A stretch of DNA of 64,000 nucleotides from Siphonodentalium dalli (taxonomy: Eukaryota; Mollusca; Scaphopoda; Gadilida; Siphonodentaliidae). The notes under the pieces were generated by a model that had not been told where the DNA came from, did no database searches, and saw only the letters and a program-made list of their open reading frames with translations. Below are positions 3,187 to 63,620 of the stretch, piece by piece. The stretch is taken from the NCBI GenBank assembly GCA_032622095.1, contig CP136068.1:162149465-162213464 (forward strand), given 5' to 3'. Position numbers and translations under genes: made by a program. The first letter of the stretch is position 1. Every line of letters starts with the position of its first letter.

Positions 3187-3200
3187 ATGGAACAACACAA
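3187..3200 (+). CDS. Gene 1 exon 1 (14-nt coding start)
   Basis: The ATG at 3187 reads MEQH plus two bases and meets a GTAAGT donor at 3201. Joined to the next exon it runs in frame through KHTD into the signal peptide. The exon is short, so it rests on the TATA box upstream and the preserved frame. Translation could instead begin at the second ATG (6876), which gives a more standard signal peptide. Confidence 0.55.
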
Positions 3201-6200
3201 GTAAGTAGTCTAATTGTTCAAGTTTAAGGTACGAAAGGCCTACGATGTAGGTTTATGCGAAATAGCATAAAGGGCTGTAAAACAGCTCTAATCAATAAGT
3301 GCATGGAAAATTGTTTGTTCGAATTTTCGTTATTAATATCTCTCCAATAATGAGATTTTGCATATCAAAACTATATCTTATGTAAACATTGCTGTTACTG
3401 TGTAATTACCTATACAAGTCCAATTACTACAATAAGATACAAACGTTTTAATCAAAAGTTGACGGCAAATATTGGAAAAAGTTTAAAATATTGAATAATA
3501 TTATGAAAATCATAATTTAGAATAAAATATTTCAACTTAATAGCGATGTTTGTTGACAAATCACTGTAATGCATGTATTTTTGTTTACATGACAATTGTT
3601 TCAACGTTCGATTGGATGTGAGATAAAGATTCCAGGTCCTATAAAACCACAATAATTTTTTATTTTATTTTATCATAAAATACTAAAAACAAATCTAATA
3701 CAAATACTCCCTGTTGACAATATGCTATCTTTTATACTATTTGGATCACTATTTAAACAACTGTTGATTCAATTTTGCTCGTTTTGTGCGCTTCTGTATT
3801 TGATGTCTCACTTACAGTTCTACTGTTCTATCGTGGTGTTGGTGTACATATATCTTATGTTTGCAATTGTATTTTGTGTTTAACAATCATGTCAAGCGTT
3901 TTAGGGCACTTCGGTATATATTAAGCTATACAAAACTGTTATTTTATTTATAATACGTAATAGTTTTAATGTCAGAAAATAATTAGATAGGACTGATGGG
4001 TTCGTTAATGGGAGGAGCCATATACCGACTTTCAAATACAGTTTTAACGAGCTTTGATATTTCGCCTATCAATAATTTCAATCATCACCTCTGATAAAGA
4101 GCGTCCATGCTTCCGTGACCCAAAAGCAGTGGACAATAAAGAGCGTGATGCATACGTTTCAACGTACAACGATGGATTATTGTTTGTATTTCACGGTGCT
4201 TGTGTCATATATAGTGTGGGGGTGGAGTAACACCCCTACCCCGTGCAATCCGTAATCCGGCTTTAAAACAGACATGGGATATGGGATCCAGTTTAACACG
4301 TCAACAGTAATGAATACCGGTATATTAATTATTTTGAATAAGAAAAACATTCCATATTTTGCAATTAAACGCCATTTGCGCGACATAGAACAGAAAAGAA
4401 TCGTTCCGTGGTAGTCTAGTCCTGATATGGTATCAATAAAGAGCGTTTGTCTTAAATATGGCGAAAAGTTGAAAACGGCTGGAAAATGACAAGCGTTTTT
4501 CAGAGAATATTAAACCGGTATATAAATAGTTCGTTTATTTATGGACATATCGTATCCGTCGCTCCAAATTACGTAGAAAAAAATTGGAGGTTCGAATGAG
4601 CCATCTCCGTTTAGGTTGGTGTCAACTCAGACCGTGGATCGCTTAAGTGTTTTACGAAATGGATTTGATTCGCTTGGATTCCATGGAGCATTGGTGAAGG
4701 TTGGTCTGACATTTAGTGAGGGACGTTCGATCAACTTGCATCCATACTCCATGCAAAGTAACGATATCCATTATTTATATTTACACTCTTCGGCTCCAAT
4801 TGTAGATTTGAAGTGGAGTTATCGCCCATTGTGAACATTATTTTGGTGGTGCGTTTGGAAGTTGCGCTCACACAATTTTCTGTCTTAATGTGTCATTTTT
4901 ATCCACTTTTTTTGAGTTCTCCGTATCATAATTATTATCATTCCCATACTTATTTTATGTGCGTTTATCTTATCTTGACATCTCCTCGTGCCAATTGGTT
5001 CATAGTGTACCGACACATATTTGATTCTTAAATAAGCCCATTGTGGACTTATACCCTATATTCCGTTTTATGGCGCGCGGCACAGTGAAAACACATCATA
5101 AATAGCGTACATATGGTAGGTAGATTTATATTTAGCGTAATTCAGATATGGGCTTATTTGTGTTTTTTAAATATAGGGCTTAAATGAACTTATTTCAGGA
5201 GAACATGTTTCTTATCCTCCTCCGTGTTGAGTGGTTTGCTTATCGCTCACTCATTATACACTGTAACCGAGTTTTAAATGTTAAATGTGATGTATCTCTT
5301 CACCGAACGTTCGCTATAGCTTCTGAATTATGGAGTAATAAGTTTGAATCAGGGAGACAATTCAACATGCCCTTGTATCATTAGGAAATTTGTTTTTCTT
5401 CAATTATTTTCTATGAATTAGGACATAACATGTGGCTATGTTTAGAACATTACAACATTTCGTATTGGAAATATAACTTTAAAAGAACACTCAAATGAAA
5501 TATGAAAACATTTGATGTTTCAAATATGTTATTATGATAATAATCACTTAACCAAGTGTTATATGTAAGGTATACTCAAACTAATTTGATGCAAAATGCG
5601 TTTTCAAATTAACAATTTCTATAACAAACAGGCTTTTATCAGTAGTTCCCTTGCTTTTATCAGTAGTTCCCTTGCTTTTATGAGTAGTTCCCTTGGGACA
5701 TATTCATATAATAAGTCGCTTGTTGAACTTATTATCACAACATTTCCCACCAATTAACCCTTTACCCAACAGAACGACCCTGTGCCAATGCATTCTCTTA
5801 TATATGCGAGTCGACCATAGGTCGCCTCGCATATATAAGAGAATGCATTGGCTTAACACATTAAATATTATAAAATTGTTAAAGAATGTAAGAAAAAATG
5901 GTAAAAAGTGTTAAAAAAAGATTTTTTTTAGGCCAATGCATTCTCTTATATATGCGAGGCGACATATGGTCGACTCGCATATATAAGAGAATGCATTGGC
6001 ACAGGGCATATCTGTAACTATCACAATGTGGTCAAGAATCCGGTTCCAATGATATCCATATTTGTATGGTTCTATTGAGACAGACCGAAGATATGTTAGG
6101 CTGTTGAAGCTTTATTTGGCCGGTTTTGGTCGGTTTGTTGGGTAAAGGGTTAATATAAATATATTTTAACTTATATATGTTTGCATATTACATGAACTGA

Positions 6201-9200
6201 ACATCCCTGAATAAAAGACCATTTTAATGCTTTCTTCTATACGTGAATGGGAGAATCCGTGCAGTATAGAGAGGGTTAATGCTTTCTTCTATACGTGAAT
6301 GGGAGAAATTATGATCCGTGCAGTATAGAGAGCGTTAATGATTTCTTCTATACGTGAATGGGAGAATCCGTGCAGTATAGAGAGGGTTAATGATTTCTTC
6401 TATACGTGAATGGGAGAATCCGTGCAGTATAGAGAGCGTTAATGATTTCTTCTATACGTGAATGGGAGAATCCGTGCAGTATAGAGAGGGTTAATGATGG
6501 AGAAGCTCTAACCTGAGTATGTTGTATGGATTCGGGGTCTAAAATAATAATTATGAGTCGACAAATTAGAGCTTATATGTCATCAGAAAATTAATTTTTC
6601 TATGAATTATTTACTATGAATCAAATCAGCTTACTACATTTTTACTACATTTTGATTGAACATATATCTTTTAAAACACGTTTTTATGTGAAATTTTAAA
6701 CACCAAATGTCTCAAATGTGTTTGTTTGGGAACAGCAGCGCTAAGGTTCATTCAAAACGCGTTTCCTAGAATGGTTGCTGTTGTTGTTGTTGTTATTGTG
6801 GTGGTGCCAGGAAAAGAAAATCATCTATAATGTATATTCATAATATTAAAATTATTTTGTAGGAAACACACAGACATGACGCGGAGTATAGCGGCGGGTC
6901 TATTTATTATTATCGTCATATTAACATCAGATATAAATGCACAGGGTAAGTTTAGTCCGCGTTCACACTCGGAACATCTCCATGACATTTGTGTTTGCAT
7001 TCATTTCGATACAGAAAGCTATAATATAACACTTTTCGCACAATGAACGACGACAACTAATTATAACGAGTAAGGTACTACGTCACTGGAATTTGTTTCT
7101 ATTCGTTGTCATGTTTCCCTATAACCGTCGTTGCGATTATGTTTTCCGCAAATATGCGACCCGCCATATCAAATCCAGTCGGAAGTCAGGATTTTTTTAC
7201 CATGTGCCAATGCATTCTCTTATATATGCGAGTCGACCATAGGTCGCCCCGCATATATAAGAGAATGCATTGGCCTAACAATTTTATATCATTTTTTTTA
7301 AATAAACGTTTCTTACAATTTTTAGGACATAAAATAAAAAAACATCCATTACCCTGCAGGGAGCCCCACACATATATAGAAGATTGTCGTCTGCTCATGT
7401 TTGTCTGGGGCTCTGTATGGGTGAAATTATAAAATTGTTAAAGAATACAAGAAAACATTATTAAAATTGCAAAAAATTGTTAGGCATATATAAGAAAATG
7501 CATTGGCACAGGGTAAAAAAAATCCCGACTTACGACTGGAATTGATATGGCGGGTCAAATATAGTAATAAGTTCGCGATGGTTTCTCAGCTCATCAAAAT
7601 GGGAGATGACTCTGAGATTATATCACGAAATTGTGATCGCCTAAAATGTTATCTATTGGTGGCAATAAAATTATTCGTCGTCGTGAAACACGAGAATCTT
7701 GCGAAACACAAAGCGCTAAGATTTCACCTGATAACAGCATAATTAAGTACAAAATAGTCACGACACGAAGACCCGTTATGCCCTTACTGTCACAGAATGA
7801 AGATCCGTTATGCCCTTACTGTCACAGCACGAAGACCCGTTATGCCCTTAATGTCACAGCACGAAGACCCGTTATGCACTTACTGTCACAGAATGAAGAC
7901 CCGTTATGCCCATACTGTCACAGAATGAAGACCCGTTATGCCCTTACTGTCACAGCACGAAGACCCGTTATGCCCTTACTGTCACATAATGAAGACCCGT
8001 TATGCCCTTACTGTCACAGCACGAAGACCCGTTATGCCCTTACTGTCACATAATGAAGACCCGTTATGCCCTTACTGTCACAGCACGAAGACCCGTTATG
8101 CCCTTACTGTCACAGCACGAATACCCGTTATGCCCTTACTGTCACAGCACGAAGACCCGTTATGCACTTACTGTCATAGCACGAATACCCGTTATGCCCT
8201 TACTGTCACAGCACGAATACCCGTTATGCCCTTACTGTACGACACGAAGACCCGTTATGCCCTTACTGTAAATAGTCACAGCATGAAGACCCGTTATGCC
8301 CTTACTGTCACAGCACGCAGACCCGTTATGCCCTTACTGTCACAGCACGAAGAACCGTTATGTCCTTACTGTCACAGCACGAAGTCCCGTTATGCCCTTA
8401 CTGTCACAGCACGAAGACCCGCTATGCCCTTACTGTACGACACGAAGATCCGTTATGCCCTTACTGTAAATAGTCACAGCATGAAGACCCGTTATGCCCT
8501 TACTGTCACAACACGAAGACCCGTTATGCCCTTACTGTCACAGCACGAAGACCCGTTATGCCCTTACTGTCACATCACGAAGACCCGTTATGCCCTTACT
8601 GTCACAGCATGAAGACCCGTTATGCCCTTACTGTCACAGCATGAAGACCCGTAATACCTTACTGTCACAGCACGAAGACCCGTTATGCCCTTATTGTCAC
8701 AGCACGAATACCCGTTATGCCCTTACTGTACGACACGAAGACCCGTTATGCCCTTACTGTCACAGCACGAAGACCCGTTATGCCCTTACTGTCACAGCAC
8801 GAAGACCCGTAATACCCTTACTGTCACAGCACGAAGACCCGTAATACCCTTACTGTCACAGCACGAAGACCCGTTATGCCCTTACTGTACGACACGAAAG
8901 CCCGCTATGCCCTTACTGTAACTAGTCACAGCATGAAGACCCGTTATGCCCTTACTGTCACGGCATGGCGACCCGTCATGGCCTTACTGTCACAGCATGA
9001 AGACCCGTTATGCCCTTACTGTCACGGCATGGCGACCCGTCATGGCCTTACTGTCACAGCATGAAGACCCGTTATGCCCTTACTGCACGACACGAAGACC
9101 CATTATGCCCTTACTGTCACAGCATGAAGACCCGTAATACCCTTACTGTGCGACACGAAGAACCGTTATGCCCTTACTGTCACAGCATGAAGACCCGTTA

Positions 9201-12200
9201 TGCCCTTACTATATGACACGAAGACCCGTTATGCCCTTACTGTACGATTGTCTCTCAAGCAGACTCGTAGTCGTCATTTTTGCGAAAAGGTTTCTGGACC
9301 GTCCGAAAAAAATACGACTAGAAATAGCTTTTCGTAATAATTATCTGTCGTCGTTTATTATGAGAAAGGTGTGTATTGTGACAGCACATGATATGCTTAT
9401 AAATTTCATCTGTACCACGGCTAAGTACGTAGACACCATGTAATTCCACATGTAGCGATGCTGCCGAAATTTGCCTATAAATTTACATCAATTATATCGG
9501 ATATTATACCAGAATAGTACGTGCCATGTCGTTAGCCTTGATAAATGCATGTTATATGCATGTTGTTGTTCATATTTTGGAGCCTGAATTAAATCAATCG
9601 ATTGTTGGGCGATTTTACAGAGTTGAATAAAACTATTACTCAACTCGTTGAGTATAAATAGTTTACTCAACGTTTATCCAACGTTGCTAGAGGCCATAAC
9701 AGCGCAGCTGTTGAGTACTTGTTGAGTAAAATCTTACTCAACGAGAGTTAGAGTGTAGTGATGGTACCCTTTAACTACCCGGTTTATATAAATAAATCCA
9801 GTTGGTGCGGATGTGCCATAACGCTGGATGTGCAATACCAACTGACATGTACCTATACTCTAATTACAGGTTGCACGCCGCCTACTAACACGGATATTAT
9901 GTACGTACTCGACTACTCAACCGGATCCCAATCATACACAAGTGAACAGCTGACACTCGCCAAATACATCTTATCATATCTACCAGTCAACGGAAACAAC
10001 ATTCAGGCCGGAGCAATACTCTATGACGACACAGACGCCAGCGCCACGTCTTCAGAAATAGTCGGCATTCAAACTGATCTCGCTGTATTCGCGTCACTCC
10101 TCGATCAAACGTCATCGAATAACGGAGGCACCAACTTCCGTTACGTCGTACCCGCATTAACGCAGGCGGTGTCGCTGTTGAACGCTGGGCGGTCGGGTGT
10201 TGATAAGTACATCGTCATGATGACAGGCGGAGATTTGACCGAGAATACAGGCACTCTACAGAGCTTCGTCGCGAGCAACAGCAACATTAACATCATTGCC
10301 GTCAGCTTCCAGGCTCTGTTTGCGCAGCGTACCATCTTCCCGAATCTCATCTACTCCAGTGATCCGACGGTCCTGCCCGCTTATGATGAGTACGTCGCCA
10401 GCTTCTTCTGTCAAAGTAAGTCCTGGAAATATAACCATGCAGCAAACGTACGCATGTACACACGTACCCGGTACACACCTTCCCTCACCAAGGCCTCATT
10501 TACGCACTAGCAAAATTCAAACAGGCAACACTGACGTCGGCGAATAGACACCATGCTTAGAAAAGCGTGCTATCTAGGCCAACAAAGTATTATGTCGGCA
10601 TAATAGAGACCTTTCGCATCGTTACTATTACGATTACGAATACGGATAGCTATTGGTAGTCATAATGCTATCCGCATGGCCAAAAAGTACCAAAACGACT
10701 ACGGATAAGAGTTTTGACGAAGACGCACCATCAATGTTTCGTACCACTTTTGCAGCTCAAAGCGCGTGTTTTGGTATGCAGTCCCTTAAACTTTACTTGT
10801 CTCGTTTTATCATTTTTTATCTTGTTCTTACATTCTTTAACAATTTTGTCATTTTTTTCTTACATTCTTTAACAAATTTTATAATTTTGTATCATTATTG
10901 TCGTTATCTGTTTTGCGAAACGAAAGTTTTGGCCCCACGTGAATTTTACGGATGCACCGTAGTCGGTACTCTGTCTATCTATATAATACGAATTGTTTCT
11001 CCTCATGGGAGAATCATTCTATCACTCGGCATTTCAAAAAGTAAAATATTTTTCCCCGCAGCTGCTTATGTCTCAAATGGACTTTCCACAACATTGGCGG
11101 CGACCACAACAACAGCTGCCGCGACCACAACAAACACAGCCGCTACGACCACAACAGCCGCAGTGACCACAACAACGGCAGCCGCTACGACCACAACAGC
11201 CGCGGTGACCACAACAACCACAGCCGCAACGACCACTACAACCGCAGCTGCGACCACAACAACGGCAGCCGCGACCACAACAACCGCAGCCGCGACCACA
11301 ACAACCGCAGCCGCGACCACTACAACCGCAGCCGTGACAACAACAACAACGGCTGTGGCTACAACAACCACCATTGTTTCCGGAAGTGAGTGTTTAGTTT
11401 TACTAACATTTCCCCTGGATGCTCATAATTGTACTACATCTAACAGGAGGTACTCCTTATAATCGTTGATATCCTTAAATGTACATGCAACCCTGGAGTT
11501 AGATGGATTATACAACACATATCATATGTGACCCGCCATATCAAATCCAGTCGTAAGTCGGGATTTGTTTTTACCCTGTGCCAATGCATTCTCTTATATA
11601 TGCGAGTCGACCATAGGTCGCCTCGGATATATAAGAGAATGCATTGGCCTAACACTTTTTATCATTTTTTTTAAATATATGTTTCTTACAATATTTAGGA
11701 CATATAATACAAAACATCCATTACCCTGCAGGGAGCCCCACACATATATAGAAGCATATAGAAGAGTGTCGTCTGCTCATGTTTGTCTGGGGCTCTGTAC
11801 GGGTGAAATTATAAAATTGTTAAAGAATACAAGAAAAAATTATTAAAATTGTAAAAAATTGTTAGGCCAATGCATTCTCTTTTATATGCGAGGCGACCTA
11901 TGGTCGACTCGCATATATAAAAGAATGCATTGGCACAGGGTAAAAAAAAATCCCGACTTACGACTGGATTTGATATGGCGGGTCACATATATGTAACTCA
12001 GTAATGTTGTCGATTAGGTGTACAGCAAGTTTTTATTTTAGGGCATCGTCCGTCCTTTAATTTTATGTGAACAATATAGTATTGTCATTATCTGCATCAC
12101 ATGACGAACTTTCGACGTCATACTTTCGCCTGGATGGGAATATTGATGCAAAGTGTTACAACTAATGTTATCTTTTGTTTTAATACCTAGCAATTAATAT

Positions 12201-14402
12201 CATACGAAAAAAGTGCCAATACTGTTGAAATTAATGGAATAAGGAAATACGCACTGCAACTGATTGTGCTCAACGCTATTGGTATTGTATAGTCATTGTT
12301 CGTTATTGGACACACGGCACTGGTTTCCCTGTTACAGTAATATGTGTCAACAATGGGGACTTTCGTCTCTGTGTGGTTATTGATAATGAACAGAAAAACA
12401 AACTCCTTCTATTTGTTCATGTCAGTATTGACCAAATGTAACGACCGCGAACACCTTTTACACCTATCCCTTTCAGTGCCAAGTCCGATTTTTGTATCAA
12501 CCCATATTTCCTTGATCAATTTTCAAATTTATTGATTATAATAATGTGATACATTGATGGAAAGAGCTCTTAGGACTTGGCACTGCAAGGGTTAACTAAC
12601 TCCGATTGTTATCGATCATGCAGGTTGTGCTTACCCGAACAACACAAATATAATCTTACTACTCGACAATTCCACGGCTTCATATGACCAACCAAAAATA
12701 CTTGGCGAAATACGTCCTATACCTCCAGTGGGAAAAACATAGAGGCGGGACCGACTCAAACACCACTGCATTTGAAATAGTTGTCGTTGTTGTAATTGCA
12801 TGTCGAATCCCTGACATGCCTATAGTTTTTTTCTAATTTATTTTACAGGTTGTGCATACCCAAACAACACGGATATAATATACGTCCTTGACTATTCCAC
12901 CGCTTCACAGCCTTACACATCTAACCAGAATGATTTAGCGAAATATGTCTCGTATCTCCTACCAATAAGTGGAAACAGTGTTCAGGCCGGTGCAGTACTG
13001 TATGACGACACAGACGCAAGTGCGGTTTCTTCAGAGATAGTGGACCTCCAGTTGGACCTCGCGACCTTTGCATCTTTACTTGACCAGACGTCGTCGAACA
13101 ACGGAGGGGGTAACTTCCGTTACGTTATACCCGCGTTAACGCAGGCAGTGTCGCTGTTAAACGCTGGGCGGTCAGGCGTAGAGAAGTATATCATAATGAT
13201 GACAGGCGGAGATTTTACCGAGAATACAGTCACTCTACAGAGCTTCGTCACGGCCAATAGCAACATTAACTTCATCGCCGTGAGCTTTCAGTCTCTGTTC
13301 GCACAGCGCACCGTCTTCCCGAATCTCATCTACTCCAGCGATCCGACTGTGTTGGCTGCATACGATGAATATGTCGCCAGCTTCTTCTGTCAAGGTAAGA
13401 TTTCCCGATGTATTTCCTCCAGTTGTTTTCGATGCACCTCTTTAAAAGGAACTTCTCTTTCATGAATATATAACGCACTTACATGTATAATACGCGGAAT
13501 ATAAATGTGTAACATATGTACATGTATAACACGACTAATGCTTAACCCCCTTTAATGACGGGAGCTGCGCTGGCGCAACATTAAAGACCCTGTGCCAATG
13601 ATTCTCTTATATATGAGAGTCGACCATTCTATAACAATGTTTATCATAATTTCTTATATTCTTCAACAATTTTTTAATTTTTATATTTTTTTCTTACATT
13701 CTTTTAACAATTTTATCATTAAAAAAAATATTACACATTCTATATCAATTTTTTTATTGTTTTTTTCTTACATTCGCTAATAATTTTTATTATTTTTATC
13801 ATTATTTCTTACATTCTTTAAAAAAAAATAATCATTATTTTTCGTTTTTTCTTACAGTTTTTAACAATTATAAAAATTAATATAAAATTTGTTAGGCCAA
13901 TGCATTCTCTTATATATGCGAAGTGTCCTATGGTTGACTCGCATAAATAAATGGATGCATTGGCACAGGGTTTTCCCAAAAATTCAGGAAGCTCCCATCA
14001 TGAAATGGTTAACTCCCCTTTTCTGGCACGCGGGATTCGGGTGGTTTTGAAGTCGTACGCATGCGTCATACCGCTCCATATACAACTGTGGACTTTTACT
14101 CTCAATGGAAATTATGACGGTCAGTAGTTGTGAAATCCACGAGTCTTATTAGTCAGGAAATGTTATGACACTTGAATATAACCCCAGTATTCCTTTTATC
14201 GCTTCCATGACTGGAGCTTCCTGACATTTTGCGAAAAAAACCTGTGCCAATGCATTCTAATATATATGCGAGAATACACTGACACATGGTATTTAACCCT
14301 TTCAGTGCCATCATTTGTTATTATTTTTTACAATTTTTTACAATTTTAATATTTTGTTCTTATATTCTACTCTCTTAAGCATACCCAAAAAAAATTCAAC
14401 CC

Positions 14403-14436
<34 letters not shown>

Positions 14437-17211
14437 AGAGTTTTTTAGGCCGATTTTTCAGACCGTAAATTAGGGCCGATGTGATCGGCCCCTGGCACTG
14501 AAATGGTTAATGCTTAACCAGCGCAACTTCCGTCACGAAAGGGCTAAGAGAAACATAAATCCAATGCGTTATCGCTTATCGAATATTACGTAATATGAAT
14601 CGTATGGGGCACGTAGTGGAGCAACCACACATGATGTGCCTCAAATTTGCCTTTTTCGGCGACATAACGCTACGGATAATTTATGTAACATCATGCAGTG
14701 GTCACGACGGAGACGACATGCCAAATTGACAAGACGTGTCGTGGATTGTAAAATCTTGTCTGGATTATCGTCATGACCTCTTAATTTTTCGTTTTCATTA
14801 AGCTGACCGACGAAATTTGTCTAAATGGAATTAATAGTCTTAAATCACATGTGAATTCTTCGTAAGTTGTGAAGTAGTTACTTTCAATTTTATCGTGATG
14901 ATTTATTTCCGATTCCGCGTTTTTTTCAATCTCCACAAGGTTGCTAACCGGAAGTCACGTGGCAATTTCTCCAAAATATATACCCGCAATCTTGAAAAAT
15001 CACTGATGGATATAGAAAAAATGATATGACGTCATTCACCTGCCTTAGGTATAAGCACTCTTGGTGGTTGCTATAAGTACATGTGCTTTTATAAACTTGG
15101 TAATTCCAGTGTCATTTATCAGTGATGCACTCTCAACAACAACCGCTGCGACAACAACAACAACGGTGGGGGTAACAACAACCACTATCGTTGCGGCAAC
15201 AACCACCGCTGCCGCGACAACAACCACCGCTGCCGCGACAACAACCACCGCTGCCGCGACAACAACCACCGCTGCCGCGACAACAACCACCGCTGCGGCA
15301 ACTACCACAACCGCTGCCGCAACAACCACAGCAGCTGCCACAACAACAACCACCGCTGCGGCAACAACAACCACCGATGCGGCAACAACAACCACGACAA
15401 CCGCAGCACCGACCACTACCACCATTCTTTCCGGAAGTGAGTGTTTTAATTGTACCGTTGATTATCCGATCAGGGACGTGACTAGAGTGTGTCCATGGCG
15501 GTGTTCACCTTGGAATTTCTAACAGCACCCACCCACTGGAGCAGACCGACATTTCCTTATCCGAGAAATTCCATTTGCTTCTAATTGGGGTAAAATTTTC
15601 CAACTGGTATTTAAAACTTTGAAGTTACCCGTGGCTTTAACATTTACCGACTGTGAATGCTACCCTTGGCTTTAACATTTACCCACTAACGCCCCATATC
15701 ATTCCAGCAATATGACTGAAATCATAAAATATTCGAATTCTGGTTTAAAGACTGCTTAAATATATTGTGGTAAAATCCCACTCACTGTCGAAAGGACATT
15801 GTATCCGATATATGGCATACTTGCATAGTGCATTAGACCGACATTCAATTATAAAGCTCGTTCGACTCCCAAATCCCAGTCACCGTGTGGAGACATAGCA
15901 TATGGTGCAAATTGCAAAACATCTGGTTGTATTCTAATGGTTTTACAAATGATGTACGAGAATCTAAAAACGTGTGTGAATGATCAAGCTACTTTCATAA
16001 TGTAATTGGCTTAAAACAAGACAAATTGTCCTATTTCGATTACTTGAATTACAATTAATTTTCTCACTCTGTATGCCACTAAACGACGAGGTGTTATCCA
16101 ATAAATTGAATTGAATTGAATTAATGACAGCAGATGCTGGAAACACAATTTTGTCAAATGATTAACCCTTTACCCAACAAACCGGCCAAAACCGGCCAAA
16201 TAAAGCTTCAACAGCCTAAAATATCTTCGGTCTGTCTCAATAGAACCATACAAATATGGATATCATTGGAACCGGCTCCTTGACCACATTGTGATAGTTA
16301 CAGTTATGCCCTGTGCCAATGCATTCTCTTATATATGCGAGTCGACCATAGGTCGCCTCGCATATATAAGAGAATGCATTGGCCTAAAAAAAAATCTGTT
16401 TTTAACACTTTTTACCATTTTTTCTTACATTCTTTAACAATTTTATAATTTTTAATGTGTTAAGCCAATGCATTCTCTTATATATGCGAGGCGACCTATG
16501 GTCGACTCGCATATATAAGAGAATGCATTGGCACAGGGCCCTTCTGTTGGGTAAAGGATTAAAGTGACACGAAACACTCGGCTTATGTGTTCAGAACGGG
16601 ATTTGTTTTCTTAATCGCATGTAGCTCGACTGAACATAAAGTATTTATACAATAACTACAAAGAATGCATGGTGTTATATGTAACCTTTAAAGGTACGGT
16701 TGGCCTTGGCGGTGGGTATCCTGTAAAAATATTTCCACCCGTCAAAAACCGTCACAAACAGACAGAACATCAAAATGTAGACAGACTTTGTCCGTATACA
16801 AATAAGAAATATCGCATAAACAGTATGTTATTGTCATATATTTGACTATTGTTATGTAAACAAAGGCATACAAAGTTACTTTTCTGGTGTTTGTTTATAT
16901 TATGATGGTAAACATAAAGAGCGTTCTTTGTGGGTGAATTCCTGATATGGAACTAATAAAGAGCGTTTATGCCATTTGTGTGTGATTAGCCAGTAGCATT
17001 GTGCTGTCTTCTGTAACACAATCAGGCTCTTGCTTCTAGGTAAAATATAGTAGGTCTTTATGATAACATGCTGTTTACGCGATGGTCATGATATATATGA
17101 ACGAAACTGTATGCGTTTTAATATTTTTCTGTTTACGGTGTTTGGAACAAATATGTATATTTTCGACAATTAAGGCCTCACGTGCCTTTAATGGACAAAC
17201 GCGATGTTTAG

Positions 17212-17277
<66 letters not shown>

Positions 17278-30767: not shown

Positions 30768-30804
30768 CCCAGGTACAGTGGTCATTAATCATAGTATTCC
30801 CATT

Positions 30805-30810
30805 AATAAA
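30805..30810 (+). terminator. Polyadenylation signal of gene 1
   Basis: A canonical AATAAA 38 nt downstream of the TAA, consistent with the mRNA ending near 30830. Confidence 0.6.
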
Positions 30811-45346: not shown

Positions 45347-45349
45347 ACT

Positions 45350-49419: not shown

Positions 49420-49679
49420 ACCACAGCATCAGACTCGTGTCATGCAGATGATTATGTATAATACATAACAAATAAATGTCATTGATTGTGTTTATATTCA
49501 CTCTTTACTGTCTCTGGTACAAACAACGTCACTTTAGTAAATGTTAACCTGCACCATTATCTTCCTCGTAAAAAGTTTCCCACGTGAGTCCCCATTGGCT
49601 CATCATGATTGTCCCCCATCAATTTCTATTGAGCACAGACAGACAGACAGTCGCATATATATACACCTAAATCCAGTCA

Positions 49680-51050: not shown

Positions 51051-51077
51051 TTAAGATCCGCACTGGTATAGTTCAAG
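51051..51077 (-). CDS. Gene 2 terminal exon, distal alternative
   Basis: After ATTTTCAG it reads LELYQCGS and TAA. Same length and same layout as the proximal copy; about 50 bp of flank is duplicated with it. Confidence 0.6.
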   Translation of the reverse strand, partial: LELYQCGS

Positions 51078-54000
51078 CTGAAAATAAATAGGTGAATATT
51101 AAGATAAGGGTATGTTTTATCAAGATCGGCACCGGTAGAGTTTAAGCTGGAAACAAAACAGTGAGTATGGAGACATGTGCATCTTACAAGGATAAATTCA
51201 CTGTCACAAGGCTGGGATCGATTTAGTTTATCAACACTAGTCGACTTATGCCACTATTATATAAACTTATAGACGGATAACATCGTTCATTGACGTTATC
51301 ATTATCACATATACTTTAAATGGTAAACTGCCGCCTATGTGGCTGCAAGTCTGAGTAATACATGTGAAATTCGCGGCGTTCTTTTTCAACTGTTTTATAA
51401 TGGGAAATGGTAGATCTTCAGAACCAGTAAATAACCGACGTCAGATCACATTCAAATGTTAAGCCGGTATGTTGGTCAGTTCTATGGAATAGTTCAATAT
51501 AACACAATTTGAAGGAACACACCGACAAAGAAGAAAGTATTTCACCCCTACCACCTAAATTCGGAATATCGGAGGTTTGATTTACGCGCACCAGTTAAGA
51601 AATAAGAAATAAAAGAAATAGTAATTTCACATTAATATGTTCATTTTCACATAAATTATTTACTAAAGCAATGTCAGTAACTTTAACATATGAAGAGTTG
51701 CAAGGCTGAATTACATCACCATTTGTTATTTGAACTAAGAAATTATTAACATATGATACGTTTGTGTTATAAAATCTGCATGTCAGCATTTTAGATGAAT
51801 ACCGAATACCAATTAAAATCAGAATATGAATCCCGGATATCATGTAGTGGGGGCTGTATGAGTCATGTGTACCCCTCAATGGTCACCCTAGAATTCCGCG
51901 TTCCTAAAAATCAGGAGACAATCCTTGAAATTGCAGACTTACCTGATCTATGCTTCCAGTGAAAGCACCGAGGTTGCCACACGCCGTTGGACACATGGAA
52001 GTATCCAAGGAACCGACGTAAAGAGCTCCATTCGAAGTGCTCAGTTTACCTGAAAAAAAAAACAATTTGTCGTCAGCAATTAACCCTTTCATGACGGTGG
52101 CTGCACAGCAACCAGTGTCTCTCGACCAGGACAAGTCAGGGACAGAGACATATATATTAAGTTAATGAGGTGGAGGAGCCAGGGGACAAAGGCCTACTAA
52201 GTTAATGAGGTGGAGCGAGTGTGATTGTGACGATTGTGATTGTGATTGTGTTGCATATCGCCGTGCTCTATATATACTGGGAAGTGTACATATATGTATA
52301 TATATTTTGCATGTTCTGTGTTAAATCATAGCTTTTGCAATAAACTGATTGATTGATTGAAAATATATGGCATTACATAGGATAGGATAGGATAATTTAT
52401 TTACAATATACATGAATTATACAAAGGCAGAAATACATAATAAGGTAAAGCAGTATATTGTCGGGGGTAGCCTAGCCCTATCGGGCTGTCTCCCTGCTAC
52501 CCCCTAAAACAGGTATCAGTGTAAATAATAGAATAGATGCTTGTATCCATATCCACGCACACGTACAGACTATAATCATATATAAAACTTTGTAGAATCC
52601 AATACTTAGGGCATAACAAAAACAAGTATTGGTGTGGTTGTGAGCCAATCCAGACGAGTTATAAGATCGAAAATGTATTATCTATCCATATGAATGTTTT
52701 GAACTGTTCAGATTTTCTAAACATATGACAGTTTCCGTTCCAGTTCCATGGGTTTATTAGGAACAAAACAGTTAGTTTTTTGTTGCTATAACGGATTCAG
52801 GCGAGAGATACCACCATCTTTAGTTCGGTAAACACAATGAGGATATATAAAGATCGCCGGGAAGTCTCTTTGTTGAGGTTGCAGTACATTGCAGTATTAC
52901 GGACAATTCCGGGAATTTCCACAGTTTAAGTATTCGAGCAACGTATAAGGCTCAAAACTTGAACACTTTATATACTGCATATATTTGAATAAATGTTCAG
53001 GAATAGGCCAGCGATAAGCAAAATACACACAACGTTATACAATATAATATAATACATGTACGTTGTGCCTAAATATAACACCAACTGTTCGTTCCAGTTA
53101 ATTTGTTCTCAGTCATTCAAAGTGAGAAAACTATGAATAACGTGTGTGTGTCATTGGACAAATGTCTCTTATGCAGTATAGAAACACATCTCTGGGTTAT
53201 TGACAGATTGTAAACAATTGGCGAGTGTAATACATACCGGGTATATTGACTGTGCTCTCAAAGCCGTTGATGGAAGCTATGAGATTCGTGTTGTTGTATT
53301 TAAGAACAACTTCCTTGTCACCATCATCCTGAAATCAGAGAGAACAATGCTTTTATGAATTGGTCGCACTGGAAGGATAGGACAGCGGATAGGCGCGAAA
53401 TAAAATCGCGATAGACTGTAGCAAAGCCGCCCTTAGTAAGGTGGTGAAGTCTTTCTAAAAGTCAAACCTGGTTATGTGGAAGGTAATACATGTACAACAT
53501 GTACGGGTGTTGTAAGGATGTCATTTAAAAAAAAATATTTATAAATTGTATTTCTTTTTCTTATAGTTTGTCATCACATAGCAAGTTAAAAATAAAGACT
53601 GCTATAGTCCACCAGTGCCGCGAATAAGTGTGCGTCAGTTAGTATAATGTAGCGACTCTCCAGCTAAATATATTGACACTGTCAATCTTTAAATTACACA
53701 ATCAATGTTTAGTGATCAGTCTTTGTACATTGTATATGTTAAAACTTTTTTTTAGATGGGAGATAAAGTGAACGGCTATGGTGTCAGTGTTGCTGTTGTG
53801 TCTAACTTCGAATGGTTGCGCAGCCTTTCTTGAAAACCACAATCTCAACTCTTCATGGAATAGGATAAAGTCCTCGACTCGAACATGACACATTGAAAAA
53901 CACAACGGTACATCACTTTCTCACGCCAAAGTGATTGTTATATCGACATATGTGACCCGCCATATCAAATCCAATGCCAATGCCAATGCCAATGCATTCT

Positions 54001-57000
54001 CTTTTATATGCGAGTCGACCATAGGTCGCCTCGCATGTATAAGAGAATGCATTGGCCTAACAATTTTTTATCATTTTTTTTAAATAAATGTTTCTTACAA
54101 TTTTGAGGACATAAAATAAAAAAACATCCATTACCCTGCAGGGAGCCCCACACATATATAGAAGCATATAGAAGAGTGTCGTCTGCTCATGTTTGTCTGG
54201 GGATCTGTATGGGTGAAATTATAAAATTGTTAAGAATACAAGAACAAAATATTAAAATTGTAAAAAATTGTTAGGCCAATGCATTCTCTTATATATGGGA
54301 GGCGACCTATGGTCGACTCGCATATATAAGAGAATGTATTGGCACAGGGTAAACAAAATCCCGACTTACGACTGGATTTGATATGGCGGGTCACATATTA
54401 CGTACCTCAAAACTTATTACCATGAAAATAAGTTTGTATCATCGTCATCTTGATTTCATGTATGTTGTTATATTGTATTGGGAGAGGGGCTTCATAAGTT
54501 ATAAAAACTTGTGCCCAAATCCCTTTTGTATATTATACAAATAAAATATGTTTCAAATCAAGTTAGATCGGCAGAACACACCAACTATCACAGCATTTTA
54601 TCAGGACCTAACTACATCATAGAAAAATGGTGGGAACCCAACAGTGCCACACATATATCGAATTAGCATGACCTCGTGACCAGGTGGTCGAGCCAGCTCG
54701 TACTCAATTTATTCTCATATTAGAGTACTTTTGGATGTTAGAGTGGAGCTGGTTATGCCAATAACGAGGCTACACTTACCGTTGTTCGCATAACTATTCT
54801 CGTCATTCGTCCGCCGTTGATGCGCGCTTCGATGATGACGTCATATTGACTTGCGGCGGCCTGCGTCCCGTCGATGTAGATAACAATTGACGGGGAACTC
54901 CAGCAGTTACAGTTCGAGATGATGACCTGTTTGGCGTTGGTGTTGCTCGGTCTGAATCTGATCATGACGGACACTCCATTCATCCAATCCATGCTAGCAT
55001 AGCGCCAGATAGTGAGGGCTTCTGACCCAGAAAACACACCCTTCCCGTTCTGGATTTGAATGTTACCTCTGTGTGCCACATAGACGGAGTTAGATACGGC
55101 GTGAGTGTCAATCGAGAAAGGAATATCCATATCGACATTACAGCTCAGACCTGCAGAAAAAAGTCAAACTCATATTCTGGCCATTGTTCAATTCAATTCA
55201 TTTATTTCTCATTTCCTTAACAAAGGCATTGAGATAAATATATATATAAGATATGTACATATATACATGTGGTCAACATGGCGAACAAACATATGCATCT
55301 ATCCAACATGATATCAATTAAATAAATAGTGTTCCTTTGTATAGAGGTCATACATGTCATATAATTTAGCTACTATACATGTACATATATATTTCATTCG
55401 ATTTAAACAGTTTTATAATATTATAATGTACTTTATATGATATACAAATCTAAGAAGTCGTCCGGTCAGGGAAACGACGACACTAATGTAATCTCTAAAC
55501 TGTTGGTTCAGGTGTTCAGGAACCTACGTCACTAATGTAATATATAAACCGTCGCTTCAGGCAATTTTATTGGCGCTATCTGTAATTCTTGTTAGGAACG
55601 TGGGAGTTGTAAGTTAGTACTCAAGCGCTATGTCAACTGGAGAAATTCTACTAACATCGCTGAAAATTCTCAAACAAATTGACCGTGCAACTCCATAGAA
55701 AACAACGTTTGAACTACACTGAATTGTAAATATTTACTTCTCGATTCGGATCGCATTGACTATCGGCGATAAACTGTATGTAGCGCGAACAATTTAACCA
55801 TCGAGAGTCACTGAATTTAATTAATATATAAGCATGACGATGTGTGTTGTCAATTTGGATATAACATTTGTAAAAATACCTAAGTTTGAGCAAGATTATT
55901 CTCCATTTCTATTTGATCACCCTATCGGAGTGTTTCACATAACATTAAGAGGATATCGATTTTGAACAATTCAACTACCGACCTGCTTGGACTGGGGTCA
56001 GAGACGCTACGACGGCTGTTCCGGCGTGGTCACATCGACATATTGGTGGCACGAACACAGTCCCAGGTGGACAACTCCTCAGCAAGGTGAACCCTAAGAA
56101 CACTTCCTCTCTGTATTCATCAGCGGCGGTGGTACTTTCGTGCATACGACAGACAGCTAAAATTAGGACGCCATGTGTTAACCCTTATATACTAAACATA
56201 TCAGGCACATTCTGATTTCATCTACATGTATTATAGTTATATATAACTATTTTAGTTGAATTCGACAGTGCGAAATCCATAATTTCCTCGCCTTTTTGTG
56301 GAAACTATGAGATCGCGTATCCTAGTACGCAGCCATAATACACTCCTAACAATACTGCAGCGAATTAAAAGTAACAGTATCCAGATCAAAATAGTTTTGC
56401 AACCTTTTGCGCCGGCTTATTTCATTTAATAATGATACACTGACGCCTTTCTAAATAACTTTAACAGGAGAAATCAATTGCTCCTTGATAGCAATATTTG
56501 GACACATATAATTTTAGTTGACTTCCTTGTCACGTGACTTCCTTATCACGTGACTTCACGAGTAAACATTCTCACGGATCTAGGCATATTACTTCGTCAA
56601 AAAACAAACAAACATGGTACGGATTTAGTATGACACTGCTTTTTAATATTGTTCTGTGAAATATGATGTTGGGTTATGCCTCGAATTCACAAAACGGCGA
56701 TATCCATATATACCTATTCTAGTTCAATATAACTATAATAATTGAATTCAGGATGTATCTGCCCCTTCTAAACATATTATCCCAGTATGCTATGCAAGTA
56801 TTTGTGGTTTGGTACATTATTCAAGTTTAATGTTCGGGTAATAACAACAGACTGGAAAAGCCTGATAAAAGTGCAGGGATATGCCTATGCATTGGTGAGA
56901 ACTATTCAGATAATAAGTTGAACTGAACATCTGAAATATTCAGATAATACATTGAGATTATGTCAACATTTCCTGGAAACTATCCGTATAGAAAAGACAA

Positions 57001-60000
57001 GGTTAGCAAGCGGATTGGCGCCGGTAGAACTTTCGTGCATACGACTAACATTAGTACGTTGCATGTTATTGGTAAACATTGTTACAGTTAATGTGCCTCA
57101 TCTCTTTACTCTCATGCATACGACAGACGGATAAAATCAGGACGTCAAGTGTTACTGGTCGATTAATTGGGATTTAATAGTGTTACAGGTATCATATTAT
57201 AGTTGAATATAACTATAATTATTCAATTTATAAAGCGCCTGGTCTGGCTAATGTGTCGTATGTATAGGTAGTTAACGTTGTCTGCGGTAGAACGTCCATG
57301 CATATGTCGGCTAAAATTAGGACGTCAAGTGTTGTAGATCGACTGAATGAGCTTCTTTTTTTTTTTAGATTTCACATCTATGTGCGGATTCGCGCCGATG
57401 GAACTTACCATCAGTTAAGTGTTTCTAGACATGTTTAAACAGACACTGCATCGATGACATATCTATATAAGCAGTGGTACCGAGATGTAAAGACATGTTT
57501 ACCCTTTCAGTGCCAAGTCCGATTTGTGTATCAACCCATATTTCCTTGATCATTTTTCAAATTTATTGATTATAATAATGTGATACATTGATGATCTAAG
57601 AGCTCTTTCCATCAATGTATCACATTATTATAATCAATAAATTTGAAAAATGATCAAGGAAATATGGGTTGATACAAAAATCGGACTTGGCACTGAAAGG
57701 GTTAAGCGACAAAGCTCGCTATATCTATTTGACGCGTTTGAGGTATTTAAATGTCATCGTATTGTACTAATGGCACCGAATATCACGGAGGAAACCACGA
57801 TAAAATGGATGATTTTTGAGAAATAAGTTTGATTGAAAACTTTAGTAAGAATGTGGCGTGACTGCTTATGGATGAAGGTTTGTGGTCAATGGCATATCTA
57901 GCAAATAATATCTCAGTCAGGTAGTTTGCCATATATATCAAATTAACACAAGGAAGTCACTTAATCGGTTGTATATAAATGCAAATTAACTTAAACAGAC
58001 CATATACCTACGGGACTAACGGAGCATGGAGTCATCATACACGGAATTGGTGAAATTTTGTTATAGTAAGCGCTAGTATAATGAAATAGCATTGGCGTAC
58101 TGGGCGATGGAGCCAGTCTAACACGTGTTATTTGCGTACTGAGCGATGGAGCCAGTCAAACACGTGTTTGCTAAGACACAGTACATCCAGTAAAGCATTT
58201 CGAGAAAACTGCACGGTGCGGTGTAAACATGCTCCGACTATAAATGATGTCCCATGTACCTTTGTATGAGTTTGTTTTGTATATTTTCTTCAATAACGGC
58301 ATTTATCATTTATACTTGAGACCATGGCTTGGTATGCTTTTCAATAAATAAACTTACGGGGAGGTGGGACAGCATTTCGTCCTTGACTCAGCGATGGGGT
58401 AGAGCATGTCCCTAGGCACGTGGCATCTGTGACGCAAGCGTTGGTCGACCAATCAAATCGCTGACCTGTGGCGCAACATGACGCGGCGGCTGTTCCGGAA
58501 GTACATCTCCAGTAGGAGTTACACGTCAGACCATAGAACGCTCGTCCTGTTGTACTGCCCGGGCACACATCTGAGAATAAAAAGATTATTAGTGTCCTGT
58601 GAATATGAAATCTACTATAACAAATATGTCTATGAAGTTTGGTATGCCAGATTATGATACCAACGCATATAGCGTAATTCATTCAGATTTCTTTGAAAGA
58701 GGACGTTCGTCTTTTCTCAGACAAGGCGGAATTTATATATGTCATCCAACTTGTGTTTGAACTATGCGCGAATGTGAATGAAATTTCTAAACTAGAAATA
58801 TATATTCATTATATCACATTTTGTATATGATGCTACATCTTTTAAGCTCTCACAATCACCACGGCATATATATATATATCACATGAAACCCCTATAATAT
58901 AATTGAAAAATCCATTACATATTTTCTTATCTGTTACTAGTGGCTAATAGTTAATAGTCCAATCAGTAATCACTTTCATTGTATACCTGCGCGCGTGAAA
59001 TTATAACGAGAAACTGTGAATTACTATTGAAAACTGATTACTTGTTTTCATTAAAATTATATTATTGAAAAATGTTACCAATAAATAACCAAATAAAGAC
59101 GAAACTAAAAAGGGACTATATTTCGTTTCGCGTGTAGCGCAGTACTGACGTATAGTGGTGAACCGTCTGAACCAGCACAATACTTGTATACAGTTTACGC
59201 GTTCTCTACAGAGCTGATGTTGTTAACAGGGCATAAAGCTTTAGTTTTTTTCATGTGATATACAAGATCTTCAACTCATCATTTTGGGATATAAGATTTT
59301 ATGAAACTCGTTTGATAAATTTGATTCAAAACTCGTCTACGACTCGTTGTGAATCAAATTTATCAAACTCGTTTCATAAAATCTTATATCCCAACATAAC
59401 TCGTTGGAGATTCTCTATATAAGTCATCCTCGAGACAAATATTAGTCTAGTGTAAACTTACCGCAAGCTATTCCGGCCTGGTTTGGTAACACACATGAGA
59501 AAGAGCTCAAATCGAAAACGTATCCAACATAGCATTGGAAGATTTCGAAGTAAGTAATGTTGGTCTGGGGGTCTGTGTAGCAGTGGTATGCTTTAGAACA
59601 GTCGCCCGGGTAGTCAGCGTATTTATGTGGACTACCACTGGTTTGTGTGACGGCGGCGGCGCAACGATCTGAAACGAAAACAAGAATGATACACAATAGA
59701 GCAATCACCATAACAACGGAACTGATTAATTTTATGACAGAAGTATCTGTGTGTCATATATATGACCGCAGTCATTCTACAATCCAATTTCCAGGTGCGT
59801 ATTTGTATTCCTGGCAAAATAGATATGCAACCAAAATATGTTACTTAGCCTGTATATGCTGATTGAAGATATGTGTTGCAACTGTGGCTGCGATAAAGCA
59901 AACTCAGTTAACCCGTTCATGGCGGGAACCGCACTGGTATAGCATTAAATATCCTCTGCCAGTCAATCTGTTATATACATGTATGAGAGTCCCACAGGGA

Positions 60001-63000
60001 GCCTTTCATATAGCAGGGAATGCACTGACTTACGCGGTCATGGTAAATAATAATTAGGCCAATGTATTCTCGTTTATATGCGAGGCTCGTATATGGCACA
60101 GGGGTTTCACAAAATGTCAGGAATCTCCAGTAATGGGAGCATTAACCCTTTCAGTGCCAGGTCCGATATATGTATCAACCCATATACCCTGTGCCAATGC
60201 ATTCTCTTATATATGCGAGTCGACCACAGGTCGCCTCGCATATACAAGAGAATGTATTGGCCTAAAACAAAATCATCATTTGTTATTTATTTTACAATTC
60301 TTTAACAGACTTATTTTGTAGGTATAGTGCCAGGGAATCTTACTTTTTCCATGGGCATCAAAATTATTACTATGAATACTTGGTGATAGTTTTGAGTTAT
60401 AACATGCTCCTAATGTTTTTTCCAGTTTTTTTTAAAGTTCGCTATAGCATGCTTAAGCATACCCAAAAAAAATTCAACCCAAAACAATCTATAAAATAAA
60501 AAAGAAGGTTTTTTTCAGGGCAGATTTTGCAGACCGTAAATTAGGGCCGATGAGATCGGCCCCTGGCACTGAAAGGGTTGAGATTGCGAAGATATGGCGT
60601 ATATCATTTCGTATGTTATGAGGAAGGTATTATTGGTTTTCCAACACTTGTGATAATAAACTAATAAGGGTTACCGTTTTGTGTTGCTTATATATAAGGA
60701 AAATACATTCACAAACACAGTATGATAAGTGAATTCGGTGTTACGGGATGGTGGTGAATTATACATATTAACCTTTTGTCGAACTGCTTTAAGTCCGTTG
60801 GTAATAATGTCCAATACTTTGTCAAATCCGTGTACACATATCCACACAGTCCTGGCATTTTGCATTACCAATATTATGTGGGGAAATGTATATGAAAAAT
60901 TAGTTTTTAAGACGCCTTGCTTTTCACTCAACTACTTGTTTGACTTTCCATATGGCCGTTTTGTTAAACTGTCAGTGCATTCATCTGACTTTGATTCGGT
61001 TATTCGAGTGTGCTAGGAGTGGGTTCGCTTCGCATGGCATTCGTGATACCTAGTCAGACATCCACTTACCTATAATGGTTACACGTAAAACATCACGAAT
61101 ACTGTGCAACAATAACAGAAACGTTATGTATGTTAACCCCCTTTATATACTAAATGTATTCTCCCAGTCAGTTATAAGCAAATGGTCTTTTATTTATCTG
61201 GAGGGATATGAAGGGGATACAAGACGACATATAAATGCAGAACATGTTCGATAAACGGCCTATGATGACCAGTGAACTGAGGTGAGCCAGTGAACTCATC
61301 TGCCGAATTTGACTAGAATATAGAAACAATAATTATCGACATGGCTCGCTTCATTTATGGGATGCGTCATCTGATCCAATGCCATATATAATACGTGTAA
61401 ATAAATACGCGAGTGCGCTGAACTCGCATTAACATGAACATGGTCGTATTCAAGCTATAACGCAGGTGATCAGCCTCGCGTCGGTTCTGTTCACTTAATT
61501 ATTTATATTTGATGTACATCTGTTCCATGTATGTATGTATTCTTCTCTGGCAAGGAGATATACAATAACATATGGTGATAAGTAACATGGGTTTAAAACT
61601 TTAGATGAGCGTATTGTATAAACCAGTTTTTGCCCTTTTGGGGGTCAGTGTGATATAAAATATTACATCACACTTTCTCCAAACTGGGTGCACGTTTGTC
61701 TGGAGTGGATATATAGCCGTGTAACCGACTGTCCTCCTGTCCATCCTATCATAAATTTAGGATCAACTCAGGTTATGACGGAGATCTAAATCAAATATAT
61801 AAGATTAAGTGTTCATCTACTGACCTGCTGGGACCGGCATTGCTGTTGTGACTGGTGCGACAGTAGTTGTGGTTAGCATGAACACTCCAGTTGAGACCGG
61901 TACAATAGCGAACGTTGTCGTGGTAGCAGCAGCTGTTGTGGTTGTTGCCGCAGCGGTGGTTGTTGTTGCCGCAGCGGTGGTTGTTGTTGCCGCAGCAGTT
62001 GTGGTAGTTGCCGCAGCTGTTGTGGTAGTTGCCGCAGCGGTGGCGGTTGTTGCCGCAGCTGTTGTGGTAGTTGCCGCAGCGGTGGTGGTTGTTGCCGCAG
62101 CAGTGTTGGTAGTTGCGGCGACGGTTGTGGTTGGAACTGTCAATTTAGTAATAGCATATACACATCAAATGAAGTGATATTACCCTTGCATGTATAATGG
62201 ATGAGTTCCAATATTTTTGGACAAGATTACGGAGATTGTTGAATTACACTTGATAGATTAAGATATATTACGAACAATCAGGGATGTCAGGATGTGACTG
62301 TCAGGTTTTCTGCTTGTGGTTTGTTATTCATATGTCAGCTTATTAAAAAAATGAGATGAACACGAAATGTATTATGAATGTTTGTATCGCTGTATCGAAT
62401 GGCATATATATGTACGTTACCCCTGTTATAACCCTAGGCTAACTCAATATTGCACCAAGCTTGGTTTGGTTGTATGAAGACAACATACTGACTCAGGTGT
62501 AAACGTGTTACATGCTATCGGAGCTTGAATGGTTTGTACATCAGTGTAAAGATATATAAAAAAACACTCAAACCCAAAGAGATTACCCATCAATATATGG
62601 TTCGAATTCAACAGCGAATTCAAACTGAAACCGAATGATAAATCTTTCAAATCCGCACTTTAAAAAAAAATGCTATGCCCTGTGCCAATGCATTCTCTTA
62701 CATATGCGAGTCGACCATAGGTCGCCTCGCATATATAAGAGAATGCAATGGCCTAAACAAATATTTTTCTACATTCTTTGACAATTTTATCATTTTTAAT
62801 ATGTGTTAAGCCAATGCATTCTCTTATATATGCGAGGCGACCTCTGGTCGACTCGCATATATAAGAGAATGCATTGGCACAGGGCCGTTCTGTTTGGGTA
62901 AAGGGTTAAAAAAGCTACCATATTAAAAATATTTTTAGTCGATACTTCGCAACAATGCATTGGAAATAATCCAAGATGCATATAATGTTGTAATATCAAT

Positions 63001-63212: not shown

Positions 63213-63315
63213 TAATGGCGAAATATTTATCTGCATGTATGGATACATGTTGTATATATTCCACGTATATCGCTAAACAAACAGCCAATTAAATACTATC
63301 CCTGATATAAACTTA

Positions 63316-63470
63316 CCGCACGATATTCCAGCCTGGGTTGGTGGTACGCCCTGATATAAACTTACCGCACGATATTCCACCCTGTGTTGGTGGTACGCCC
63401 TGTATAAACTTACCGCACGATATTCCAGCCTGGGTTGGTGGTACGCATTCGAATGTGTACAGATTGAAGA
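63316..63470 (-). repeat. ~50-bp exon/intron boundary in three tandem copies
   Basis: The unit includes ACCCAGGCTGGAATATCGTG and the GTAAGTTTATA donor. It occurs three times, giving donors after 63414, 63366 and 63317. Confidence 0.9.
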
Positions 63471-63620
63471 CGAAGCCGGAGTTACATTGTCCTATTTCGT
63501 ATGATATCCCACATAGCAGGCATTGTTTGTAGCAGTGGTAGAATTTAGAACAGTCGCCCGGGTAGCTGTTATAACTATGTGAACTTAACAGTGACACTTT
63601 GACGGCCGACGCACATCGTT
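63414..63620 (-). CDS. CBM14 exon upstream of gene 2, with extended reading
   Basis: A 207-nt exon, phase 1 to phase 1 (CTTTCAG acceptor, GTAAGT donor). It reads RCASAV, YNSYPGDCSKFYHCY, QCNSGFVFN, ECVPP and ISCG, a full six-cysteine CBM14 with two extra cysteines (KQCLLCG). It can splice in frame to 61825-62136. It belongs either to a longer form of gene 2 or to a gene continuing to the right. Confidence 0.8.

Follow-up and report, generated by a model that had tools for sequence, protein, structure and literature searches.

The window analysed here is a stretch of 64,000 nucleotides from the scaphopod mollusc Siphonodentalium dalli (assembly GCA_032622095.1, contig CP136068.1, positions 162,149,465 to 162,213,464 of the forward strand). 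It holds two multi-exon genes, gene 1 on the + strand and gene 2 on the - strand, which converge on each other with 21 kb between the stop codon of gene 1 at 30767 and the last laminin-G (LamG)-like exon of gene 2 at 51943. An earlier note on this DNA had described a tail-to-tail pair of paralogous Pif/BMSP-like genes, and both the facing arrangement and the paralogy are upheld. That the two are predicted Pif/BMSP-like paralogues in inverted orientation is well supported by their exon content, exon order, intron phase and cysteine (Cys) spacing. Part of the earlier description has to be qualified, in that the exon layout was recovered while the laminin-G identity of the end of gene 2 found no profile match. 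The gene models were built from stop-to-stop frames (those of at least 75 amino acids were listed), splice-site modelling and Pfam, and consist of the following parts, with threonine and alanine given as Thr and Ala and expect values as E.

6876..6945, + strand: predicted signal-peptide exon (exon 1) of gene 1, MTRSIAAGLFIIIVILTSDINAQ, donor in phase 1 (signal-peptide scan)
9870..10415, + strand: gene 1 VWA1 exon, phase 1-1 (Pfam PF00092, E=1.8e-5, above cut-off; AG/GT sites)
11062..11385, + strand: gene 1 Thr/Ala-rich spacer exon 1, 53% Thr, 31% Ala (open frame, phase 1-1, splice sites, composition)
~12624-12790, + strand: broken fourth VWA exon, first third only, acceptor kept, several indels (tblastn, sequence inspection)
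12849..13394, + strand: gene 1 VWA2 exon (Pfam PF00092, E=2.2e-5, above cut-off; splice sites)
15110..15436, + strand: gene 1 Thr/Ala-rich spacer exon 2, 53% Thr, 31% Ala (splice sites, composition)
19608..20153, + strand: gene 1 VWA3 exon (Pfam PF00092, E=2.7e-4, just below cut-off)
25856..26056, + strand: gene 1 CBM14-like exon, four of six Cys (under the Pfam PF01607 cut-off at E=0.016; tblastn matches to the two CBM14 exons of gene 2)
27983..28180, + strand: Cys-doublet CBM14 of gene 1, the second in order (passes the Pfam PF01607 cut-off at E=5.3e-5; Cys spacing)
30604..30767, + strand: gene 1 four-Cys terminal exon, stop TAA at 30765-30767; candidate relic donor at 30773
30805..30810, + strand: probable poly(A) signal of gene 1, AATAAA (38 bp past the stop)
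63414..63620, - strand: CBM14, the first exon of gene 2 in view (passes the Pfam PF01607 cut-off at E=5e-6; splice sites)
61825..62136, - strand: gene 2 Thr/Ala-rich exon, 46% Thr, 32% Ala (splice sites, composition)
59669..59711, - strand: gene 2 in-frame ATG and hydrophobic run MVIALLCIILVFVS, possible alternative start, abutting the second CBM14 exon
59462..59668, - strand: second CBM14 exon of gene 2, Cys complete at six (slightly under the Pfam PF01607 cut-off, E=2.7e-4)
58358..58570, - strand: gene 2 Cys-doublet CBM14 (Pfam PF01607, E=2.2e-4, just below cut-off)
55983..56156, - strand: gene 2 four-Cys exon, frame intact to the donor
54780..55150, - strand: gene 2 LamG-like exon 1 (splice sites, phase)
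53238..53328, - strand: gene 2 LamG-like exon 2 (splice sites, phase)
51943..52049, - strand: gene 2 LamG-like exon 3 (splice sites)

The model of gene 1 encodes 973 amino acids. The earlier note had placed its start at 3187, which is here replaced by the first coding exon predicted at 6876-6945, the sole signal-peptide candidate in bases 1-9870 at the cut-offs of the scan; over both whole strands the same scan returned two other loci on + and one on -. The eight exons that follow the signal exon have a common start phase behind AG acceptors and GT at their ends, and the seven internal ones among them are all phase 1-1. All three VWA domains claimed for this gene were found again, and two of them lie above the PF00092 cut-off. 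A bacterial-type promoter scan upstream of the signal-peptide exon was uninformative (one site, against 1.4 expected). The predicted first intron contains a 32-bp minisatellite of about 46 copies (7757-9243), within the 4 kb of highest GC content in the window.

Gene 2 is cut by the right edge of the window. Its first five visible exons likewise share one start phase behind AG acceptors and have GT at their ends, and its CBM14 exons keep six Cys. The chitin-binding exons reported earlier are present, but the two CBM14 exons are split by a Thr/Ala-rich exon that had gone unmentioned. The LamG region comprises three in-phase exons in which a LamG-like pattern was read by eye, so that laminin-G at the end of gene 2 is a prediction from position and pattern. 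No terminal exon after 51943 was found in the scan. An aspartate-rich insert in the laminin-G domain characterises the Pif subfamily in the strict sense; between the LamG-like exons of gene 2 the minus strand has no stop-free frame of at least 75 amino acids, smaller exons being possible. The 3' end of the first visible CBM14 exon, donor included, occurs three times in tandem with a 49-bp period (63300-63446, - strand), which possibly provides alternative donors for that exon. An inverted repeat lies in a gene 2 intron (57498-57705), and introns of gene 1 hold similar copies of it (12465-12573 and 21628-21842).

Shared exons and the age of the pair

The CBM14, second chitin-binding-like and four-Cys exons follow each other in the same order in both genes, in agreement with the earlier description, and each of the three finds its counterpart in cross-gene tblastn (CBM14, E 4e-13 to 4e-8; Cys-doublet CBM14, 3e-25 to 9e-21; four-Cys exon, 2e-7). 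The Cys spacing of the Cys-doublet CBM14 (13-5-8-0-12-5-3) and of the four-Cys exon (25-10-1) is the same in the two genes, while that of the first CBM14 differs. Between the genes, synonymous divergence (dS) is about 2 or saturated for both CBM14 types and 1.5 for the four-Cys pair, which aligns poorly. With synonymous sites near or beyond saturation the duplication that gave rise to the two genes must be old, and a recent duplication was ruled out on the same grounds.

Nucleotide matches between the introns of the two gene regions, which were not classified individually, resemble dispersed repeats and Thr-rich repeat DNA. Non-corresponding introns of the two genes share a 66% nucleotide match in the same orientation (22000-22396 and 56237-56665). 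A near-perfect 67-bp palindrome, with the arm CCAATGCATTCTCTTATATATGCGAG, is scattered from 636 to 62877 as 25 paired and five single arms in 64 kb, often two close together, in introns as well as between genes; its 55 half-sites in the window compare with none in 100 shuffles. The intergenic gap holds a 33-bp tandem array of nine copies with 97% match (32394-32695). Ten long open frames elsewhere in the window were compared with Pfam, of which eight had no match and two had sub-threshold matches only.

VWA array and 3' end of gene 1

Gene 1 ends after the four-Cys module, as had been noted before. From the start of this exon to the GT there are 169 nucleotides in gene 1, which is not a multiple of three, versus 174 in gene 2, and the frame with the four Cys reaches the TAA five bases ahead of the GT at 30773, which is read as a remnant of the donor still in use in gene 2. 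The three LamG-like exons of gene 2 had no match on the + strand of the window, the best value being E=0.28, and in the same run three control exons from the gene pair were recovered at 3e-23 to 2e-7. The stop, the poly(A) signal and this lack of a + strand match together support the absence of a LamG end from gene 1, which the earlier note had also stated. The loss may have begun with an indel in the four-Cys exon that placed a stop before the ancestral donor.

The VWA array itself has a mixed history. VWA2 and VWA3 are 94.5% identical (dS 0.26, with a ratio of nonsynonymous to synonymous divergence, dN/dS, of 0.11), and VWA1 is separated from both by a dS of about 1.1 (dN/dS 0.13). The block of identity between VWA2 and VWA3 (12783-13399 and 19539-20158, 92.4%) extends past the exon on both sides, by 66 bp into the upstream intron and by 5 bp downstream of the donor, and suggests an exon-sized duplication or gene conversion. 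The broken VWA exon lies directly upstream of VWA2, which implies either that no fewer than four VWA exons formerly stood in the array or that it was being copied.

Probable placement in the Pif/BMSP family

We consider it probable that genes 1 and 2 are old convergent paralogues of the molluscan Pif/BMSP family and that gene 1 has lost its LamG end. This judgement covers the family assignment together with the lost end, and the likelihoods given below to other explanations overlap with it. Eight subfamilies are defined in PMC11291548, and the most likely arrangement is a BMSP-like gene beside a PifN/LamG3-like gene. Gene 1 appears BMSP-like because its several VWAs are separated by Thr-rich spacers, and gene 2 appears PifN/LamG3-like in having a Thr-rich exon before CBM14 and a LamG-like region without a visible insert.

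The published descriptions that bear on this placement are largely architectural. CBM14 lies downstream of VWA in 38 of 50 family members (PMC11291548), and does so in gene 1 by Pfam and exon order. In BMSP, Pif and Lottia relatives the first chitin-binding domain is immediately followed by a second, chitin-binding-like one that contains a Cys doublet (PMC3374290), and both genes of the window have this domain; a Thr-rich motif before the chitin-binding (CB) domain has also been described, Lottia included (PMC3374290). Low-complexity sequence of the Thr-containing cluster occurs mainly between the VWAs of BMSP (zone 2) and between VWA and CB of PifN (zone 3) (PMC11291548), and the inter-VWA spacers of gene 1 are of this composition. 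A laminin-G (LG) domain, in some cases partial, follows CB in 34 of 50 members and is thus not universal (PMC11291548); none follows CB in gene 1 when the + strand is compared with the LamG-like exons of gene 2. Complete LG is reported for PfuPifN (PMC11291548), Pif-d is said to have lost the N-terminal part of LG (PMC10543319), and the evolution of VWA, CB and LG is discussed in PMC7747718.

Neither gene is a perfect copy of a described type. Gene 1 resembles BMSP in its predicted signal peptide, tandem VWAs, inter-VWA Thr-rich regions, CBM14 and Cys-doublet domain, but differs in having three intact VWAs and one broken, in the apparent lack of a LamG end, in altered VWA metal-site residues (judged by eye) and in a first CBM14 without two of its Cys. 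The N-terminal VWAs of BMSP number four in bivalves (PMC11291548), two in the gastropod Lottia and one in Octopus and the scaphopod, and the count in gene 1 is an exact fit to none of these named classes. Gene 2 resembles PifN in its Thr-rich exon before CBM14 and its LamG-like region, in which no insert is visible, but differs from it in that no VWA lies inside the window and an extra CBM14 precedes the Thr-rich exon; with LamG3 it shares three CBM14-type domains and a LamG-like end, any VWA of it lying beyond the window edge. As a pair the genes resemble the oyster Pif_LamG3 cluster, consisting of linked paralogues for which reverse tandem duplications, with VWA loss giving LamG3, have been proposed (PMC10543319), except that here the copy without LamG is the one that carries three VWAs.

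Several observations weigh against this placement. No Pif/BMSP family sequence was recovered by three protein searches, and membership thus rests on Pfam, architecture and published descriptions instead of on a tree. The search with the full gene 1 model passed 215 proteins; of the 120 listed, 119 had no BLASTP alignment to the query, and the hits, the few named ones including mucin-like and cohesin-domain proteins, were read as driven by the Thr/Ala spacers and rejected. The chitin-binding and LamG-like part of gene 2 drew 4568 candidates with none at E 0.001, and VWA1 drew 946 with none at E 10; these two null results may reflect sparse mollusc proteins or an over-strict word filter. A chitin-binding beak protein, the best match of one gene 2 CBM14 (E=0.06), was set aside as barely above chance-like sodium channels (0.086, 0.091 and 1.3). 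The LamG-like exons of gene 2 found no sequence match in Pfam, PHROGs, NCBIfam or PDB, and the VWAs likewise found none in PDB. An AlphaFold model of LamG exon 1 was too poor to use (mean predicted local distance difference test score, pLDDT, 38.8), and Foldseek with it was uninformative (best E 2.3, none at 0.001); the model of VWA1 was similarly too poor (mean pLDDT 43.6; Foldseek best E 1.2, none at 0.001).

Residues and motifs in gene 1 point in the same adverse direction. What we take to be the metal-site motif DxSxS reads DYSTG, DYSTA and DYATA in VWA1, VWA2 and VWA3, respectively, and at the positions presumed to correspond to GGT and TDG, also assigned by eye on the alignment, GGG is found in VWA2 and VWA3 and TGG in all three. 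The first CBM14 keeps four of six Cys, the second and sixth being absent. Gene 1 thereby departs from the published Pif/BMSP alignment, in which the DXSXS motif and six completely conserved Cys are marked (PMC6907788, Fig. 2). The low-complexity regions of BMSP lie almost exclusively in its LG region (zone 4), those of the Thr-containing type between VWAs being a minority (PMC11291548), and chitin binding by the Cys-doublet domain was doubted by the authors who described it (PMC3374290). A sequencing indel could also mimic the stop of gene 1, though not the missing LamG exons, and decay of its 3' end is possible. The VWA array may bind partners without metal; the metal-ion-dependent adhesion site (MIDAS) is mentioned in PMC4660305.

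Alternatives and the meaning of the pair

The upstream end of gene 2 bears on whether the pair truly divides one set of domains. The earlier note had found no VWA in gene 2, and this is correct for the window: the three VWA exons matched its minus strand at E=1.9 at best, with only 380 bp of window upstream of the first visible exon. That exon begins with a splice acceptor, and unless transcription starts within the window further exons are therefore to be expected on its right. A Thr-rich exon ahead of CBM14 would suit a PifN-type protein with VWA. It favours, over a reciprocal loss of VWA, the alternative that the earlier note had itself raised, a Pif-type gene extending past the right edge, and gene 2 thus likely continues there to a VWA; that a VWA beyond the edge belongs to gene 2 is, in our estimate, rather to be expected than not. 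Against this VWA part of the reading stands a possible internal start at 59711, where an ATG and 14 mostly hydrophobic residues precede the second CBM14 exon (hydropathy 3.76). On that basis gene 2 could be a complete VWA-less gene of the LamG3 type, whose hydrophobic codons after 59711 overlap the splice-acceptor tract, and the two genes would truly split the Pif domain set, with the CBM14 and Thr-rich exons further right belonging to a longer transcript or being leftovers. The run is in frame into the CBM14 exon and is the one site of 931 phase-1 acceptor-like sites whose run-in passes a hydropathy of 3.0; of the 16 post-signal exon run-ins 14 were compared by eye and no other is so strong, the nearest preceding the Cys-doublet exon of gene 2. 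VWA-less LamG3 proteins have, moreover, been published (PMC10543319). However, the run was noticed after the fact, looser cut-offs admit eight (2.5) or 18 (2.0) of the 931, one of the 28 sites with a pyrimidine score of at least 14 passes the hydropathy test, and hydrophobic residues are expected anyway from a pyrimidine tract. The CBM14 and Thr-rich exons upstream are moreover undamaged and agree with the others in phase and orientation, and the run coincides with a splice acceptor. The sign of the Thr-rich exon is accordingly weighed above that of the internal start, and a gene 2 beginning at 59711 is regarded as a serious but clearly less probable alternative.

Decay offers another account of gene 1, as an early pseudogene with a stop in its shortened last exon, a VWA remnant and a first CBM14 reduced to four of six Cys. 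The second and sixth Cys of CBM14 bond with each other, and the two that are missing would thus form a mutual pair. The remaining exons of gene 1 have open frames and canonical splice sites, the stop has a poly(A) signal behind it, and dN/dS is low (0.11-0.13) among the VWA exons, the more recent VWA2/VWA3 pair included, all of which makes decay improbable. No more convincing is a placement of both genes with VWA/chitin-binding matrix genes that lie outside the shell-related Pif/BMSP clade, or an origin in a related phylum (such as brachiopods, phoronids or nemerteans). Such VWA-CB proteins exist (PMC11291548, PMC7747718), and searches with the gene 1 model, the gene 2 part and VWA1 gave no mollusc match; but each of three features, namely multiple VWAs separated by Thr-rich spacers, a Cys-doublet domain and a Thr-rich motif ahead of the chitin-binding domain, has been described from mollusc shell proteins (PMC11291548, PMC3374290). 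A bolder proposal, which we think unlikely, is a Pif of two polypeptides: gene 1 would have kept and multiplied a VWA array with a decayed metal site and dropped LamG by an early stop, gene 2 would have dropped VWA and gained a signal peptide from a splice-acceptor tract, and the two chains would rejoin on chitin for the work of one protein.

We therefore retain two old paralogues of the Pif/BMSP family, both predicted to encode secreted chitin-binding proteins that would help to build the shell. Mantle cells would secrete the two proteins and the CBM14 domains would anchor them to chitin, where the VWA array of gene 1, on presumably glycosylated spacers, may bind other matrix proteins and LamG may give the gene 2 protein a different binding end. 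A division of labour could thus have arisen through domain loss after duplication.

VWA-less LamG3 genes, multi-VWA BMSP genes and a reverse-tandem Pif/LamG3 cluster have already been published (PMC10543319, PMC11291548), and titles and abstract beginnings in the literature held no tail-to-tail BMSP/PifN pair among the matches listed. The pairing resembles the published oyster duplication history, which makes the locus likely an ordinary instance of a known family; it adds a case to the published pattern, and one in which a specific loss of domains can be read from the sequence. Domains that are shuffled or lost, together with duplication, are believed to shape the evolution of shell-matrix proteins, and such steps can be seen here at the DNA level in two linked genes of opposite orientation, one of them with an early stop, a candidate relic of a splice donor and a broken fourth VWA exon. 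Should gene 2 truly be without VWA, the two genes would offer a clean natural experiment on the role of each Pif domain.

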